From NCBI GenBank assembly GCA_001898935.1, contig MKVT01000008.1, positions 186,001 through 250,000 of the forward strand: a DNA stretch of 64,000 nucleotides, given 5' to 3'. The translations under genes were made by a program, and so were the position numbers. The DNA is from Paludibacter sp. 47-17 (lineage in GTDB: Bacteria; Bacteroidota; Bacteroidia; Bacteroidales; Paludibacteraceae). A model generated the notes under the pieces. That model saw only the letters and a program-made list of their open reading frames with translations. It was not told where the DNA came from and did not search any database. This document shows, piece after piece, positions 17,790 through 28,654 of the stretch; position 1 is the first letter of the stretch; every line of letters starts with the position of its first letter.

Positions 17790-18467
17790 CTATCCGTTCT
17801 GACTGATTAATTCCAGACTCCGTTTGTTGATAATCTCGAGGTGTTTACCCTGCATCCTGATGATCCCGTCTTTTTCGAATTCCGACAACATGCGGCTTAC
17901 ACTTTCGCGGCTGGTGTCGATGAGGTTGCCGATTTCGGCCTGCGACAAGGGGATGGTAAACCGGTCGGAACTGAAGATGTTTTTCGACATGTCGAGCAAT
18001 ACTTCGGCCAGATTGCCCCGGGTTTGTTTCTGTATGCGATTGGCACAGCGGCGGAACGAATCGATCTCGTACCGGCACAACGAGCGGATAATTTCAAATG
18101 CAAACTCATCGTTCGATTTCAACAAATCTTTAAATGTACCCATGTCGATAAAACAAACCTCGGTATCTTCCAGGGCGGTGATGGAATACTGATTGATTTT
18201 ATCGCCCACGGTAGTGGGAAGTCCCAGGTAAGTAGGGGGCTTGGCCAGTTTGACGATTTGCTCGCTGTAGGGACCGGTGATATGGATTTTTACCAGCCCT
18301 TTTCGTAAAAAAATTACATTGGTAGAGTAGGTGCCCTGTTTGATGATGGAGTCGCCTTTTTTGAATCCTACCACGATGTGGTTGTCCGATAAAAGTTGCA
18401 GATCGCAACCGGCCAGCTTAGCGGCTGCGTCGGAAATATAGATGCAATGGGTACAATCGGTTTTCAT
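17790..18467 (-). CDS. Crp/Fnr family transcriptional regulator
   Basis: cNMP-binding fold plus HTH LSQAEIGNLIDTSRESVSRMLSEFEKDGII. Confidence 0.92.
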   Translation of the reverse strand: MKTDCTHCIYISDAAAKLAGCDLQLLSDNHIVVGFKKGDSIIKQGTYSTNVIFLRKGLVKIHITGPYSEQIVKLAKPPTYLGLPTTVGDKINQYSITALEDTEVCFIDMGTFKDLLKSNDEFAFEIIRSLCRYEIDSFRRCANRIQKQTRGNLAEVLLDMSKNIFSSDRFTIPLSQAEIGNLIDTSRESVSRMLSEFEKDGIIRMQGKHLEIINKRSLELISQNG

Positions 18468-18549: not shown

Positions 18550-18567
18550 TTGTGATTTAAATCACAA
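18550..18567. promoter_or_regulatory. Perfect 18-bp palindrome TTGTGATTTAAATCACAA, candidate Crp/Fnr-type (or Rex-type) operator
   Basis: Direct reading; TTGTGA-N6-TCACAA upstream of the Crp/Fnr gene. Confidence 0.7.
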
Positions 18568-22065: not shown

Positions 22066-23109
22066 CTATTCTTTCAGTTTCGCAAAATACATTGCAAACG
22101 ACCGGTACAGAAAATGTGTCCATTTTCCGAAAGGTACAATCAGCAGCGCCCATTGTGCCAGCACGGTGAAATGTGCAATATACAGCCATTTGTTGCTTTC
22201 CAGCCAGTCGAAATCGATGAAGAGGCGTACCACGAAGGCGGTGAAACCCATCAGGAAAAGCCAGATTACGAAGAACCAGTCGGAGGGTTGCGAATGCTTG
22301 TTCACTTCGCGGTTCTTTTTCATGCGGCCCGATACGAAATCGATGGTGACGACAAACACCACGGCGCTCACCACATAGCCGAATATCTGTACGAATACCG
22401 ATGGGGTGGAAAACCAGTTGAGGAACACAGTGGTGAATAAGAGCGAGAGGTATCCGAATACCAGAATCAGGTGCTCGAACCAGCGTTTCTGGTTGTCGTC
22501 GCAGCCCAGTGCGCGTTTTTGGGTAAACATGTGTACGAACAGTTCGCCCAGACTACTCACGTATTTTTTGAAAGGTACTTTCACGCCGGGTTTCAGGATG
22601 GTGTAATTCCACATCCGGATAATATTCGGGAGTAAAATTACCAGTCCGATGGTTCCGATGGCTATCATTTCGAACCGATGCCCTACGTGAAGAAGGGTCT
22701 CTAGTTCGAAGTTGACCGATAGGGCAAAAGCCATTACTCCAACCAACACCAGAACAAATGCAGCGATGCTAACCGGTAGCGATTTATAGAGCAGTCCCGA
22801 GAGCCCGGTCCAGTCGTATTTCGCAGTCAGGTAGCGGCGCAGCGACATCATCAACTCGCCCGGGTTGGCTTCCTGCGGACAGTAAGTGGTGCACTCGCCA
22901 CAGTAATAACATTCCCAGGGTTTGAGCGAGGATTGGATTTCCTCTTCCAGACCCAGCGCGCTCAGGCGAACCATTTCGCGGGGAAACGAATTTTCGGTGG
23001 TCGAAAGTGAACAAACTGCCGTACAGTTGCCACAATTGTAGCAGGCGTTGAAATTGACAGAACCGTATTTTTTCAGTTCCTTGCCAAAAGCAGGATTGAT
23101 CGTTGCCAT
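22066..23109 (-). CDS. QmoC-like HdrC/HdrE fusion: 4Fe-4S dicluster domain plus membrane cytochrome b-like domain
   Basis: CYNCGNCTAVC and CYYCGECTTYCP cluster motifs followed by several hydrophobic segments. Confidence 0.85.
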   Translation of the reverse strand: MATINPAFGKELKKYGSVNFNACYNCGNCTAVCSLSTTENSFPREMVRLSALGLEEEIQSSLKPWECYYCGECTTYCPQEANPGELMMSLRRYLTAKYDWTGLSGLLYKSLPVSIAAFVLVLVGVMAFALSVNFELETLLHVGHRFEMIAIGTIGLVILLPNIIRMWNYTILKPGVKVPFKKYVSSLGELFVHMFTQKRALGCDDNQKRWFEHLILVFGYLSLLFTTVFLNWFSTPSVFVQIFGYVVSAVVFVVTIDFVSGRMKKNREVNKHSQPSDWFFVIWLFLMGFTAFVVRLFIDFDWLESNKWLYIAHFTVLAQWALLIVPFGKWTHFLYRSFAMYFAKLKE

Positions 23110-23390
23110 TATTTATTCAGTTTGTAGGTGTAATACTCGTCCATGTCATCTATATCTCCTACAAGCACTTGTCCGTATTTTACAAGTGAGCTCAGGTAGT
23201 ACATTACCTCGTGCGAGGGCATCTCCAGTTTTTCAGCCAGTTGCTTCACCGTAAGCTCTTCTTCTTTCAGCGCTTCGGTAATTTTTTTCTTCTGCTGGTT
23301 AAACTCTTTCAGTTGTTCCTTGGCCTGCCCGGGGATTCCTCCCAACTTCTCGCGCAGGTATTTCGCGGTTTTTCCTTTTTCTACTTCCAT
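23109..23390 (-). CDS. Small winged-helix-like protein of the Hdr/Qmo-like operon
   Basis: LTVKQLAEKLEMPSHEVMYYLSSLVKYGQV resembles HTH/winged helix; start/stop spacing consistent with operon membership. Confidence 0.75.
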   Translation of the reverse strand: MEVEKGKTAKYLREKLGGIPGQAKEQLKEFNQQKKKITEALKEEELTVKQLAEKLEMPSHEVMYYLSSLVKYGQVLVGDIDDMDEYYTYKLNK

Positions 23391-23412
23391 AATTGTTCTG
23401 TTTTTAAAGTCA

Positions 23413-25344
23413 TCAGGCCAACGCGTCGATCATGCTCATGATTTCGGCGCTCGAACAGGCAATCAGATCGATGGCGTCGGGTTCGCATACGGGCATACAC
23501 ATTCCGCATCCTTTGCACACGGCATTGTTGATCTGGGCAATCACGCGGCCGTTGCTCCCGGCTTTCAGAATGGCATCGAACGGGCAAGCTTCTTCGCAGG
23601 CACCACACCAGGTGCATTTATCTTCGTTGATGACGGCAATGAGCGGCTGGGCTTCCAGTTCGGGTTTGCTGACAATCGAATACGATTTGGTGGAGGCCGA
23701 AAGAGCCGAATTGACCGACTCTGCAATGTTTTTCGGTCCCTGACAGGCGCCGGCAATGGTAATGCCGTCGATTACGGTTTCAACCGGACGCAGTTTCATG
23801 TGCACTTCGTTGAAGAATTGGTCGCGACCTTTCGGCAGTTTGAAGAGCGATCCCACCTGATTGTCGGCACGCGGTACCATTCCGGTTACCAATACCACCA
23901 GGTCGGCAGCTACTTCCAGTTCCTTGCCGGCGGTAAGAATGTCGTTGATTTTCACGATGGTTTTGTCGCCTTTCGGGGTTACGGTCGGCGGACCGTCTTC
24001 GTACGATTGCAGGTAGATATCGCCATTGCGCAATGAGTCGGCATACAGGATTTCCTGTTTTCCATAGGTACGCAATCCGCGGTTGAAGTGGAAATTGTTT
24101 ATCTTCCCGAACTTTTGCTTAGCTGTTACCGCCGCATGAATGGTGGATGTGCAGCAGTTGCGCGAGCAATAGGTGTTTCCGCCTTCTTCCTGGCGACTTC
24201 CCACGCAGTAGATGTAAGCGATATTGTGCACTTCTTTTCCTTTGTGCATCAGCTTGCCTTCCTGCGTGTCGATCATGCGTTTGAATTGCGGCAGGGTGAT
24301 TACATGGTCGGAGGTTGCGTAACCAAACTCGCCGTAAGCCGGCGTATACGAGTCGAAACCGGTAGCCATCAACACCGAACCTACATTAAAATGCAGTTCT
24401 TCGGGCTGTTCCGAGAAATCGATGGCGGTGCATATTTTTTCGCACTCGCCGCAGCGGGTGCAGGCTTTCAGGTCGATCACCGGAGTCTGCGGGTATTCGC
24501 TCGGGTAATTCTTGTAAATAGCCTTGCGGTTGCTCATGCGGAAGTTAAAGGTATCGGGCACTTCCACAGGACACACTTCGATGGCCCGTTTCAGATCTTC
24601 CGGATGGCACGAGCCCTTCACGTAGCGGGGTGTCTTGCGCACGGTAAGTTCGATATTTCCCACCGAGCCCTTGTTACCAATCAGTTCGCTGTTGGTGAGG
24701 ATGGTGATGTTCCCGCGACGCAGTAACTCATTGTACAGGCGCGTGATCATTTCCTTGCCCGTTTCGGTAGTGGTCGAAAGCGTATCCCACTGGGCCACGC
24801 GTCCGCCTACAAAGGGTTCTTTCTCGATAAGGATTACTTCGCATTCTTTGTCGGAGAGCGACAGCGCCGCTTTCATGCCCGCTACGCCGGCGCCTACGAC
24901 GGCCACCCGTTTTTCGGTTTTCACCCTGGTGCTTTCCAGGGCTTCGGCGTAATGAGCCTTTGCAATGGCTGCTTTTACGAGGTGAATTGCTTTTTCGGTA
25001 GCGCCCATCTTATTGTCGGAATGCGCCCACGAAGCCTGTTCGCGGATATTGGCATGAACGTAGGTATATTTGTTCAGGTCGGCCCGTTCGGAAACATTCC
25101 GGAAGGTAGTAAGGTGGAGTTTCGGTGAACAGGAAGCCACCACAACGCCATCGAGCCGATGCGTTTTGATATCGTCGACCATATCGCGCTGGTTCGAATC
25201 GGAACAGGCAAACATGGTGGTTTTCGACAAGAAAACGATTTCATCTCCCGCAACGGCTTCGCGTACTTTCTCCACGTCCACATAGTCGGAGATATTTCCT
25301 CCGCAATGGCATATATATACGCCTATTTTCTTCTTCTCTTTCAT
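23413..25344 (-). CDS. HdrA/QmoB-like FAD and iron-sulfur oxidoreductase
   Basis: IGVYICHCGGNISDYVDV, VAVVGAGVAGMKAALSLS, YTYVHANIREQ, CTRCGECEKIC, C-terminal CTWCGACEEACP and CKGCGMCMPVCEP. Confidence 0.92.
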   Translation of the reverse strand: MKEKKKIGVYICHCGGNISDYVDVEKVREAVAGDEIVFLSKTTMFACSDSNQRDMVDDIKTHRLDGVVVASCSPKLHLTTFRNVSERADLNKYTYVHANIREQASWAHSDNKMGATEKAIHLVKAAIAKAHYAEALESTRVKTEKRVAVVGAGVAGMKAALSLSDKECEVILIEKEPFVGGRVAQWDTLSTTTETGKEMITRLYNELLRRGNITILTNSELIGNKGSVGNIELTVRKTPRYVKGSCHPEDLKRAIEVCPVEVPDTFNFRMSNRKAIYKNYPSEYPQTPVIDLKACTRCGECEKICTAIDFSEQPEELHFNVGSVLMATGFDSYTPAYGEFGYATSDHVITLPQFKRMIDTQEGKLMHKGKEVHNIAYIYCVGSRQEEGGNTYCSRNCCTSTIHAAVTAKQKFGKINNFHFNRGLRTYGKQEILYADSLRNGDIYLQSYEDGPPTVTPKGDKTIVKINDILTAGKELEVAADLVVLVTGMVPRADNQVGSLFKLPKGRDQFFNEVHMKLRPVETVIDGITIAGACQGPKNIAESVNSALSASTKSYSIVSKPELEAQPLIAVINEDKCTWCGACEEACPFDAILKAGSNGRVIAQINNAVCKGCGMCMPVCEPDAIDLIACSSAEIMSMIDALA

Positions 25345-26642
25345 AGGTGTTGAATTAAGTAACTGATTGCTTCGGAGGAGGCGGAGCCTGCCGAGAGAAT
25401 AGAATCGGGGATATCCATCGGACCGGTGGCGGTGCCGGCTACAAAAACTCCGTCGATACTGGTTTTCGAAGGATTGGCCAATGGGTCGGCTTGTCCCACG
25501 AAATTGAATTTATCGAGGTAGAGTGTTTCGCTCTCAAACAGTCCGTCGATGCCCTTGGGAGGAACTACGCCGGTGGAAAGCACAACCAGATCGTGATCGG
25601 CTTCCATCAGTTTGCCGGTGTTGATATCTTCGTAACGCAGGGTGAGATTGCCGTTTTCCTTTTCGGAAATTCGTCCGATTTTTCCTTTTACGAAATTCAC
25701 GCCCATTCCTTTGGCCTGTTGGTAGAATTCTTCAAAGCCTTTCCCAAAGGAACGTATGTTGATGTAGTAGATGGTTACGTCGGCCATCGGCAGTGCGCCC
25801 ATCAGGAGTTGTGCCTGCTTGATGGAGTACATGCAGCAGATTTGCGAACAAATCGGGTTGCCCACGGTGGCATCGCGCGAGCCCACGCAGAGCACATAGG
25901 CTACCTTGTCGGGCACTTTGCCGTCGCCCGGACGCAGGATAGTGTTGAACGGGCGGGTAGGGGCCAGCTGGCGTTCCATCTGCATGGCCGTGATAATGTT
26001 TTTGTATTCGCCAAAACCATAGCGAGGCATCTTTTTCGCATCGAAAAGATCGAAGCCGGTAGCCAGGATTACGGTACGTACGTGCAGGTTCATTGTTTCG
26101 GGCTCCATGGTGAAGTCGATACAATTAGTAGGACATACCTTTTCGCAGGCGCCGCAGAGCGTGCAGTTTTCAATATCGATGGCCGCCGCTTTCGGGCTGG
26201 CGATGCTGAAGGGGATAAAGGCCGCCTTGCGACCGACCAGTCCGAACTGGTACTGGTCGGTAACATTTACCGGGCAGGCCTGTTCGCAGAGTTGGCACGA
26301 AGTGCAATCGGCCACGTGCACATATCTTGGATTTTTCGTTACTTTCGCTACAAATCCGGTATCGCTTACTCTCCGGATATTCCCCACTTCCGATCCCGTG
26401 AAGATGGTGATATTCGGATGGCGCGATATCTCGGAGATTTTCGGTGTCGTGATACAGGCCGAGCAGTCGAGGGTAGGGAATACCTTGCTGAGCATGATCA
26501 TTTTACCACCCACCGATAAATCTTTTTCCACGAGCAGCACTTTGTAGCCTGTGACGGCCAGGTTGAGAGCAGCCTCTCCGCCGGCAATGCCGCCCCCGAT
26601 TACAAGCGCGTCGTAGGTGATGTTTTTTATCGTGTTTTCCAT
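25341..26642 (-). CDS. HdrA/QmoA-like FAD and iron-sulfur oxidoreductase
   Basis: ALVIGGGIAGGEAALNLA, CTSCQLCEQACP, CTLCGACEKVCP, YVLCVGSRDATVGNPICSQICC. Confidence 0.9.
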   Translation of the reverse strand: MENTIKNITYDALVIGGGIAGGEAALNLAVTGYKVLLVEKDLSVGGKMIMLSKVFPTLDCSACITTPKISEISRHPNITIFTGSEVGNIRRVSDTGFVAKVTKNPRYVHVADCTSCQLCEQACPVNVTDQYQFGLVGRKAAFIPFSIASPKAAAIDIENCTLCGACEKVCPTNCIDFTMEPETMNLHVRTVILATGFDLFDAKKMPRYGFGEYKNIITAMQMERQLAPTRPFNTILRPGDGKVPDKVAYVLCVGSRDATVGNPICSQICCMYSIKQAQLLMGALPMADVTIYYINIRSFGKGFEEFYQQAKGMGVNFVKGKIGRISEKENGNLTLRYEDINTGKLMEADHDLVVLSTGVVPPKGIDGLFESETLYLDKFNFVGQADPLANPSKTSIDGVFVAGTATGPMDIPDSILSAGSASSEAISYLIQHL

Positions 26643-27049
26643 TAATTATGCAGTGTTTTAAGTAAATACTCGTTGAAGCTTTTTACCTGTTTTACGAAGG
26701 ACGCACTACACACCGAACAGATGGCCGCCATACGCAGGCGGGCCGGATCCAGTTCTTTTTCCTTCATCAGAGTATGTGTTTTCGCGACCAGATTACCGGT
26801 TTTTTCGGTACACGACTCTCCATATACACAGTCGCTACCATCGGCTGCAATGAAAACGCCGTCGAAGCCTTTTTCGTAGGCATATAAAATCCAGCTCGGT
26901 TTGATAGCGCTGGAGCAGGGCACTGAGATGGTATAGACGGTAGGAGGATAATGTAATTTCAGAAGTCCTGCCATATCGATGGCAGGATCTGAAATTTTTT
27001 CAGTGGAAAATACGAGGATTTTCGCACTTTTCTTGTTGAAATCGCCCAT
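26642..27049 (-). CDS. Divergent MvhD/FlpD-like hydrogenase iron-sulfur subunit family protein
   Basis: LLKLHYPPTVYTISVPCSSAIKPSWILYAYEKGFDGVFIAADGSDC aligns by eye with MvhD family; gene context. Confidence 0.75.
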   Translation of the reverse strand: MGDFNKKSAKILVFSTEKISDPAIDMAGLLKLHYPPTVYTISVPCSSAIKPSWILYAYEKGFDGVFIAADGSDCVYGESCTEKTGNLVAKTHTLMKEKELDPARLRMAAICSVCSASFVKQVKSFNEYLLKTLHN

Positions 27050-27057
27050 GGCAGAAC

Positions 27058-27309
27058 TTATTTCTTACGCAGGTAAATCTTGAAATAACCATTCTCCTCG
27101 ATGGTTCCCAGGAATTCATGGCCCTGTTTGGTACACCATTTCGGAATGTCCACCTTGGTGCCTTCGTCGGCCGAAAGCACTTCCATTACTTCGTTTGCAC
27201 CTACGCCGCCGATGGCTTTTTTAGCTTCGAGGAGGGGGCCCGGACAAGCGGTACCACGAGCGTCGACCGATTTTGCTACGGTAAGAGCGTTTAATTCTTC
27301 TTGTGTCAT
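27058..27309 (-). CDS. TusA family sulfurtransferase
   Basis: VDARGTACPGPLLEAKKAI (CPGP motif), 83 aa. Confidence 0.93.
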   Translation of the reverse strand: MTQEELNALTVAKSVDARGTACPGPLLEAKKAIGGVGANEVMEVLSADEGTKVDIPKWCTKQGHEFLGTIEENGYFKIYLRKK

Positions 27310-27329
27310 TGTTGTAAAAATTTATAGGG

Positions 27330-27896
27330 TTAAATAAAAAGCTGCATACTGCTTTCGCCGGCTTCGGCTACGAAGGTGGCGGCGCCGGCCATGCGGAGGT
27401 TGGGATAGTCGATGAATTCCTCTTTTCTGAAGCCCATCAGACCCGCCGACATTTCGCATACCGTGATTTCTATTCCCAGCTCAGCCGCCTCTTTCAGCAT
27501 CTGCTCCAGCGACATCACATTCTGCTTCCGCATCAGGTGTTTAATCATCATAGGGCCCATTCCCGCCATATTCATGTTCGAGAGTTTAAGCTGGCCGGTA
27601 CCCTTGGGCAACATCATGCCAAACATCTTCGAAATAAAATCCTTGCCTTTCGCTTTCTTCCGCGCGTCGCGCAGTGCCGCGAGCGACCAGAACGAGAAAA
27701 ATAATTTTACCTGCGTATCCATGGCGGCGGCCGCGATACTGATAACGAAAGCGGCCAATACCTTGTCGAGGTCGCCCGAAACAACAGCGATCGACAGTTG
27801 ATCCTTTCGTCCGCTTTCCAATTGCGCAACCCTTTGCTTCAATGCTTCCAGCTGCTCGAGCAGTTGCGCCGGGGTGGGTTCTGTAGTGTTACTCAT
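27330..27896 (-). CDS. DsrE/DsrE2-like family protein (possibly membrane-associated)
   Basis: LSIAVVSGDLDKVLAAFVISIAAAAMDTQVKLFFSFWSLAAL and ITVCEMSAGLMGFRKEEF; ATG at 27896 chosen because the longer TTG start (27926) overlaps a -7-like element. Confidence 0.85.
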   Translation of the reverse strand: MSNTTEPTPAQLLEQLEALKQRVAQLESGRKDQLSIAVVSGDLDKVLAAFVISIAAAAMDTQVKLFFSFWSLAALRDARKKAKGKDFISKMFGMMLPKGTGQLKLSNMNMAGMGPMMIKHLMRKQNVMSLEQMLKEAAELGIEITVCEMSAGLMGFRKEEFIDYPNLRMAGAATFVAEAGESSMQLFI

Positions 27897-27984: not shown

Positions 27985-28002
27985 TTGTGATAATTCTCAC
28001 AA
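27985..28002. promoter_or_regulatory. TTGTGATAATTCTCACAA, candidate operator matching the one at 18550
   Basis: TTGTGA-N6-TCACAA with identical half-sites, about 90 bp upstream of the operon start codon. Confidence 0.7.
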
Positions 28003-28114
28003 AAAACACCGCATCCAGATCAGCTTTTTTCCTGTTCTTAATTCAATTGATCCATGGGTAATACATGAAAAATATGTATCTTTGCAAAGTCGAATATTAA
28101 AAAAAACAGATTGC

Positions 28115-28654
28115 ATGAGCACTACCAATGCCCAGTACGACAAAGCCGCCGCACAGTGTAGCGAGATATTTTTCAAAAAGCTGAAGGACTATGGTTCGTC
28201 GTGGCGGATCATGCGCACCCAGTCGGTTACCGATCAGATTTACATCAAGGCCAAGCGTATCCGGAGCATCGAAATGAAAGGCGTGTCGAAGGTCGACGAA
28301 GGCATTCGGTCGGAGCTGATCGGCATTGTCAATTATGGTGTTATCGGGCTCATTCAGCTCGAACGGGGCATCTCCGACGAAGATGATATGACCAGCGAGG
28401 AGGTGATCGGGCTGTACACCCGATTCGTGCAACAGGCCAAGGAGCTCATGATGGCCAAAAATCACGATTACGACGAGGCCTGGCGCTGGATGCGGATGGA
28501 ATCGTACACCGACCTCATATTGATGAAGATTAAACGAACCAAGCAAATAGAAGACAACAAGGGCGTGACGCTTATTTCCGAAGGTATCGATGCCAACTAT
28601 TTTGATATGATTAACTACGCCATCTTCGGGCTGATAAAAATGGAGGAAGAGTAA
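28115..28654 (+). CDS. DUF1599 domain-containing protein
   Basis: Internally repeated LKDYGSSWRIMRTQSVTDQIYIKAKRIR / AKNHDYDEAWRWMRMESYTDLILMKIKRTKQIE; TATCTTTG at 28077. Confidence 0.88.
   Translation: MSTTNAQYDKAAAQCSEIFFKKLKDYGSSWRIMRTQSVTDQIYIKAKRIRSIEMKGVSKVDEGIRSELIGIVNYGVIGLIQLERGISDEDDMTSEEVIGLYTRFVQQAKELMMAKNHDYDEAWRWMRMESYTDLILMKIKRTKQIEDNKGVTLISEGIDANYFDMINYAIFGLIKMEEE

Follow-up and report, generated by a model that had tools for sequence, protein, structure and literature searches.

What reaction is served by an operon that joins two sulfur carriers to an HdrA/Qmo-type redox module in a member of the Bacteroidales? The question is raised by seven tightly packed minus-strand genes at 22066-27896 of a 64,000-nucleotide stretch of Paludibacter sp. 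47-17 (contig MKVT01000008.1, positions 186,001 to 250,000; hereafter the window), encoding DsrE, TusA, MvhD, HdrA1, HdrA2, a small winged helix-turn-helix protein (wHTH) and a QmoC-like membrane subunit. We place the operon within the HdrA/Qmo kind but outside canonical Qmo and sHdr. We suggest, with a probability of about 0.52, that it encodes a membrane-bound, menaquinone-linked HdrA/Qmo-type complex exchanging electrons with sulfane sulfur held by DsrE and TusA, with a likely net reductive outcome; complex formation, substrate, direction, confurcation and regulation by a Crp/Fnr protein are the parts of this proposal that we infer. The parts themselves are known, and by the open-access literature the novelty lies in how sulfur carriers are combined with a winged-helix subunit and an MvhD whose cysteines are remodelled. 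No description of this sulfur-carrier operon was found in that literature, and an earlier sequence-only reading had named the system as a candidate for an undescribed one; subscription journals lay outside the coverage, so an earlier account is possible.

Operon organization and conservation in Bacteroidales

All seven genes listed by the sequence-only reading were found as open reading frames (ORFs) at their expected places, with spacings from dsrE to the qmoC-like gene of +20, +8, -1, -4, +22 and -1 bp. The DsrE-family sulfur carrier (27330-27896, minus strand like the other six; 188 aa) matches Pfam DrsE_2 with 150.8 bits, and Cys147, lying in the CEMSAGLMG stretch that had been pointed out as conserved-looking, is kept in 100% of 63 orthologues. 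Its closest solved structure is 3pnx, a putative DsrE sulfurtransferase (E 3.5e-25); against the membrane-bound DsrE2 model NF047629 it scored 65.8 bits, not reaching the cut-off of 210. TusA (27058-27309, 83 aa) satisfies both the TusA profile (PF01206, 80.2 bits) and the CPxP cysteine, and this residue, Cys22 of the CPGP motif noted earlier, is present in 100% of 79 orthologues.

The locus set came from a GTDB scan and comprises the 80 top-ranking of at least 562 relatives; apart from one 'Chlorobiota' metagenome-assembled genome (MAG), every label is Bacteroidota. The order DsrE-TusA-MvhD-HdrA1-HdrA2-wHTH-QmoC is unrearranged across the 80 loci, with a median gap of 7 bp; co-occurrence of the operon genes in Bacteroidota was among the checks that the earlier reading had proposed. 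Complete loci make up 44 of the 80, 31 with all seven genes and 13 in a six-gene fused form, and the incomplete patterns mostly represent contig ends, split ORFs or a DsrE under the counting threshold. Among the carriers are Petrimonas, Proteiniphilum, Fermentimonas, Prolixibacteraceae, Marinifilaceae and Lentimicrobiaceae MAGs and the complete Petrimonas sp. IBARAKI genome (L075). Of 60 genomes taken from close relatives and from the order, 41 have a relative of the QmoC-like gene. At 1e-20 it was detected in 93 of 392 order-level genomes, and at window grade (at least 460 bits) in 43 of 392; the phylum sample gave a match in only 18 of 393, several at the lower scores of canonical QmoC. Within the genus the operon is accessory, with no match in four genomes (G003, G014, G016 and G029), of which G016 is a single-contig genome. 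The conservation of the operon is far beyond chance, and it is common in Bacteroidales, not peculiar to Paludibacter sp. 47-17.

HdrA pair and QmoC-like subunit

The two large proteins had been described as HdrA-type flavin adenine dinucleotide (FAD)/Fe-S proteins similar to QmoA and QmoB; the first part of this description stands, whereas by the phylogeny that had been called for they are not QmoA and QmoB proper. HdrA1 (25341-26642) is a short HdrA with an FAD domain and an inserted ferredoxin (NF040770, 477 bits; 387 bits to 5odc_A), whose Fe-S cysteines are conserved at 92-100%. HdrA2 (23413-25344) is a full-length HdrA (NF040770, 553 bits; 439 bits to 5odc_A across residues 3-634) with an N-terminal domain, an FAD domain and a C-terminal 2[4Fe-4S] domain, and its inserted ferredoxin is partly degenerate. 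In the IQ-TREE tree of HdrA-type proteins (64 sequences, 419 columns), HdrA1, HdrA2, the hydrogenase-linked HdrA1 and HdrA2, the apr-linked QmoA and the apr-linked QmoB are each monophyletic with support of 100. The joint QmoA and QmoB clade is also supported at 100, and HdrA1 and HdrA2 of the operon fall outside it, the deeper nodes being weak (46-77). Identity to the methanogen HdrA (5odc) is 42% and 36% for the window HdrA1 and HdrA2, against 25-35% to QmoA/B.

The membrane subunit (22066-23109) is, as had been predicted, a QmoC-like protein with an HdrC-type 2[4Fe-4S] domain fused to an HdrE-type cytochrome b domain, though at 138.2 bits it misses the NF038018 cut-off of 300. The eight Fe-S cysteines are 100% conserved, and His213, His313 and His332 are invariant in both the apr-linked QmoC and the operon's QmoC-like family. 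We also detected menD above cut-off in the host genome. The earlier idea of a membrane-bound, quinone-linked sulfur-carrier system is borne out for the carriers, the membrane subunit and the absence of sat/apr/dsr, while the quinone link is plausible, as judged from menD and from these cysteines and histidines.

In four loci with the same sulfur operon, complete or cut by a contig end (L146, L147, L148 and L149), the QmoC-like subunit is nearer the hydrogenase-linked QmoC, and L147-L149 form a diverged branch with the same genes. This suggests that the membrane subunit was swapped between sulfur-type and hydrogenase-type complexes.

Remodelled cysteines of the MvhD adaptor

The electron adaptor (26642-27049) matches the FlpD profile (PF02662, 95.4 bits), and its AlphaFold2 (AF2) model, with a mean predicted local distance difference test score (pLDDT) of 77, matches 5odc_D/5odh_D with a template modelling (TM) score of about 0.8. 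The MvhD-like family assigned before is thus retained, as is its fold in the model, and the hydrogenase-type cysteine pattern (CxxC ... C ... GC ... DC) is not. The hydrogenase-linked MvhD of related clusters has CNWC, CSG, CGC and DC (5 sequences); in the sulfur-operon MvhD the CNWC and the CGC pair are wholly gone, C45 and C74 are retained, and C80, C111 and C114 are new, each occurring in 99-100% of about 80 sequences. All five cysteines are invariant in a set of 39 sequences. It seems that this adaptor, which normally meets a hydrogenase, was remodelled as TusA/DsrE took the place of MvhAG.

A locus from another order of the same phylum (L144, genome G100) has the order MvhD-HdrA1-HdrA2-QmoC, with a probable minus-strand TusA near 13.4-13.9 kb deduced from an antisense ORF. 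Most of the remodelled cysteines are absent from its MvhD, which keeps the CxxC at 111/114, and the locus is possibly an early form of the sulfur operon.

Winged-helix protein and the fused architecture

The small winged-helix protein (23109-23390) has conserved residues clustered in an acidic C-terminal DDMDEYY stretch and an AF2 model with a mean pLDDT of 89. A second architecture was detected at 16-19 loci. In this form a GltD/PRK12771-type NAD(P)H-FAD domain bearing a Fer4_20 motif is inserted in HdrA1, bringing it to about 930 aa, and the wHTH is fused onto the C-terminus of HdrA2 (wHTH hidden Markov model against the long HdrA2, E down to 7e-20). Both changes are found together at 16 loci and neither at 50, a GltD insertion with a separate wHTH at 0, and a fusion without GltD at 3, which from gene lengths and matches are taken to be truncated or misassigned GltD forms. 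The fusion to HdrA2 in this architecture makes a structural or allosteric role within the complex the most likely one for the wHTH; the GltD insertion in HdrA1 implies, in turn, that NAD(P)H can partner the complex. A function as transcription factor is disfavoured by the HdrA2 fusion and by the linkage of a different regulator, of the Crp/Fnr family.

That a winged helix can serve sulfur metabolism without being a regulator has a precedent in DsrD, an activator of DsrAB. DsrD is likewise a small protein of a sulfur operon, and its fold (PDB 1wq2) resembles that of the operon wHTH with a TM of 0.73 by target, at rank 45. The structure search gave generic winged-helix matches only, with ArsR/SmtB proteins ranking above DsrD, and the likeness to DsrD is a generic fold match with no sequence link. 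The GltD-type domain of the second-architecture HdrA1 recalls HdrL, an HdrA that bears an additional NAD(P)H-binding domain (PMC12142623), but the window form is without the insert and the operon adds QmoC and the sulfur carriers.

Genomic and phenotypic context

The host genome (G000; 4.18 Mb, 39 contigs, 99.98% complete, with the window on contig 8) was searched by profiles. No dsrA, aprA, sat or dsrC was found genome-wide, and neither was a PF00384 molybdopterin oxidoreductase (the catalytic subunit of Psr/Phs/Sre) or a PF00374 NiFe hydrogenase (MvhA/MvhG). The lack of sat, apr and dsr, reported earlier for the window, thus extends to the genome, and the full dissimilatory sulfate or sulfite pathway that the sequence-only reading had named as speaking against its proposal was not found there. 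HdrB-type proteins are absent from the seven operon genes, as had been noted, and the genome search gave a single 259-aa CCG protein elsewhere. An ordinary Qmo locus is ruled out by the genome-wide absence of apr/sat/dsr together with the position of the HdrA pair outside QmoA/B, and a hydrogenase-linked MvhD by the absence of a NiFe hydrogenase in the host genome. Across the 18 genomes searched, dsrA was above cut-off in none and sat in none.

Petrimonas sp. IBARAKI (G060, L075) carries the operon and has the same enzyme absences as the host. According to PMC9695182 (citing Grabowski 2005) and PMC11664143, Petrimonas sulfuriphila uses elemental sulfur (S0) as terminal acceptor, forming H2S, with growth stimulated. 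Petrimonas is reported to reduce S0, yet Petrimonas sp. IBARAKI is without PF00384, dsrA and aprA, and the operon is a candidate for the missing enzyme. We consider it the leading candidate for Petrimonas S0 reduction at the genus level, the link being a correlation. Heterodisulfide reductase goes unmentioned in the multi-omics paper on P. mucosa, as judged by a text search.

Proposed function of the complex

In the proposed reductive complex, external sulfur or polysulfide would pass through rhodanese and DsrE carriers to become TusA-bound sulfane sulfur and would leave the cell as sulfide, providing an electron sink for a fermenter. Electrons from menaquinol and a low-potential donor would run through the flavins and clusters of QmoC, HdrA2 and HdrA1 to MvhD, and from there to TusA- or DsrE-bound persulfide. 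The menaquinone link would be made by the haem b and the two [4Fe-4S] clusters of the QmoC-like subunit, while HdrA1 and HdrA2 would hold the FADs and the Fe-S chain with the wHTH bound as a subunit, and the remodelled MvhD would be the docking or electron-transfer piece toward the sulfur carriers, in place of the hydrogenase side of ordinary MvhD. The S-S step might be performed by MvhD, by an HdrA flavin or by a separate protein, such as the neighbouring HdrBC of some species.

The redox potentials are about -80 mV for menaquinone, about -270 mV for sulfane sulfur and about -320 mV for NAD(P)H. On its own, menaquinol donates only weakly to sulfane sulfur, so that a further donor of low potential, brought in by flavin-based confurcation, is likely; the argument uses both these potentials and the GltD insertion. 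In the GltD form this donor would be NAD(P)H, and in the window form it would be either NAD(P)H or ferredoxin.

The proposal is supported by the gene order, with the carriers first and the redox genes after, by the sulfur-trafficking neighbours in other species and by the conserved carrier cysteines. Also in its favour are the enzyme absences and the menD of the host genome, the Petrimonas correlation, the joint occurrence of the GltD domain and the wHTH fusion, the contrast in MvhD cysteines with the hydrogenase-linked relatives, and the Crp sites. The reductive direction is favoured because the hosts are largely fermentative, no sulfite-handling enzyme was found among those searched, and the Petrimonas phenotype is reductive. 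Several points weigh on the other side. The operon is without a subunit bearing the HdrB non-cubane cluster, the disulfide reducer of Hdr. Confidence in the AF2 model of MvhD is only moderate, and no cluster is seen in it. The Petrimonas link is at genus level, with the phenotype from P. sulfuriphila and the genome from another strain. Finally, sequence cannot give the direction, and the same parts fit oxidative use.

In that oxidative mode, sulfane sulfur derived from sulfide or persulfide and carried on TusA/DsrE would be oxidised in an sHdr-like manner; menaquinone would accept the electrons, together with NAD(P)+ or ferredoxin by bifurcation. The TusA/DsrE carriers and HdrA are indeed common to sHdr sulfur oxidisers (PMC6067878, among others), a few loci have HdrBC genes downstream, and according to PMC10504309 Qmo serves sulfate reducers and sulfur oxidisers alike. 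The operon itself has no HdrB, however, and with dsrA over cut-off and sat both absent from the 18 genomes there is no known route beyond sulfite; as the hosts are also largely fermentative anaerobes and the known Petrimonas phenotype is reductive, we regard the oxidative mode as unlikely.

A more specific form of the reductive proposal would make the complex molybdenum-independent, linked to both menaquinone and NAD(P)H and able to reduce TusA-S-SH directly, and HdrB would be replaced by a new cluster or persulfide-reducing site built from the altered cysteines of MvhD; this would explain S0 reduction by fermentative Bacteroidales, and we put it forward as a tentative, rather doubtful possibility. 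If the reductive proposal is true, the Hdr/Qmo family, known for disulfides, adenosine phosphosulfate and H2, is extended to carrier-bound persulfides, and sulfide production is to be expected in habitats where annotation shows no sulfur reductase. Fermentative Bacteroidales commonly occur in digesters, sediments and sulfidic springs. The natural cysteine change of MvhD and the paired GltD/wHTH fusions are handles on partner change in HdrA complexes.

Comparison with known systems

Canonical, apr-linked QmoABC shares with the operon the two HdrA-type flavoproteins, the HdrC/HdrE-type membrane subunit and, plausibly, the quinone link. The operon differs in HdrA1/HdrA2 outside the QmoA+QmoB clade, in separate MvhD and wHTH genes, in the TusA/DsrE linkage without apr/sat and in the QmoC model score (138.2 against 300 bits). 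Type II Qmo, as described in part of PMC10504309 (Neukirchen et al.), has QmoAB nearer HdrA than bacterial QmoAB, occurs with or without Dsr/Apr and has an open function, and the window HdrA pair, nearer 5odc HdrA than QmoA/B, agrees with this description. Vulcanisaeta and Ammonifex are named in that part of the paper, which mentions no DsrE-TusA-MvhD-wHTH unit, and the likeness is to that published description.

A type II Qmo-like complex with an unrecognised acceptor, whose sulfur carriers would serve only cofactor or Fe-S assembly, has the shared QmoC-like fold in its favour. The carriers are kept at the operon head, though, and are joined by more sulfur carriers in many species, and the host genome has no apr/sat/dsr. 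Genome G042 holds AprBA-QmoABC and the sulfur operon both, therefore these are two separate systems, and we consider the type II alternative improbable. The AprBA-QmoABC locus of G042 is a true one; such clusters were detected in Bacteroidales at L038, L039 and L153-L156 (G049, G042, G671, G545, G627 and G608), and L145 comes from elsewhere in the phylum. In G042 and G049 aprA and DsrC-like proteins are present, with no dsrA and no TIGR00339-type ATP-sulfurylase.

The HdrA-QmoC-HdrA-MvhDGA hydrogenase clusters of Bacteroidales (L036, L150-L152) have the same redox core, including QmoC and MvhD, but their MvhD keeps CxxC and CGC and stands beside the MvhG/MvhA NiFe hydrogenase, with no TusA/DsrE. 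These clusters encode a relative of the Mvh-Hdr hydrogenase complex that would be located in the membrane and linked to quinone. The arrangement HdrA-QmoC-HdrA-MvhD-MvhG-MvhA occurs in two copies in G057, and MvhD is not among the ORFs of L151.

HdrA and the TusA/DsrE carriers are shared with sHdr (HdrC1B1A-hyp-HdrC2B2 with LbpA), which is oxidative, whereas the operon has the membrane QmoC and no HdrB. The YTD cluster of sulfur disproportionators is similar in the TusA adjoining a DsrE-like gene and differs in having YedE and CHP1-3 and no Hdr/Qmo; the DsrE/CHP proteins of YTD are reported from no phyla other than Desulfobacterota, Nitrospirota and Acidobacteriota (PMC12998232). A YTD disproportionation cluster is ruled out by the gene content of the operon, where we looked for YedE and CHP1-3 and found neither.

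Candidate regulator, probable binding sites and recurrent neighbours

A Crp/Fnr-family regulator (17790-18467, minus strand; cNMP_binding and HTH_Crp_2 domains) is encoded in the window, and with 327 bits to the operon-adjacent regulator of L068 it is the probable orthologue of the divergent regulator found at upstream position up1/up2 in 45 of 56 loci. A TGTGA-N6-TCACA palindrome (27986-28001) lies 89 bp ahead of the first codon of dsrE and is probably a Crp/Fnr binding site; a second perfect one, 83 bp upstream of the regulator gene (18551-18566), suggests probable autoregulation. The regulator, 3.6 kb away, likely regulates both the operon and itself. Among 47 loci, 26 have the palindrome ahead of dsrE, where shuffles gave a maximum of 2-4. 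The 4.18-Mb genome holds 3 perfect sites, a total not above the reversed-pattern control (4), so that the informative part is their positions only: two precede the operon and the regulator, and the third, just after an aspS-like gene, looks like chance. A short gene (28109-28654) starts divergently from dsrE, and the site at 27986-28001 could serve that gene also. A sigma-70 promoter and terminator scan of the region gave signal at or under the shuffled background.

C5, C8 and C105 of the regulator are present in 100% of 46 sequences, making redox or sulfur sensing possible. The conserved N-terminal CxxC (C5, C8) of this dedicated regulator could sense sulfane sulfur, which would suit reactive-sulfur detoxification or homeostasis, with excess persulfide or polysulfide cleared by cellular reductant and no respiratory or fermentative sink; the accessory nature of the operon within the genus points the same way. 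We find such a role quite unlikely, as so elaborate a membrane complex, whose several subunits include two HdrA flavoproteins and a cytochrome b, is costly for it, and as the neighbouring porins and exported rhodaneses point to external sulfur being taken up.

Recurrent neighbours of the operon in other species include extra DsrE-family proteins (17 loci and smaller groups), two-domain exported rhodaneses, a rhodanese lipoprotein, a Porin_O_P porin, TauE/SafE and HdrC+HdrB. In L042, L043, L045 and L046 a DsrE-family lipoprotein with a YACPTC motif is encoded between HdrA1 and HdrA2, likely an exported sulfur carrier inside the operon. An HdrC and HdrB-like pair lies close downstream in L062, L065, L080, L081 and L086, and could supply the disulfide-cleaving subunit in those species.

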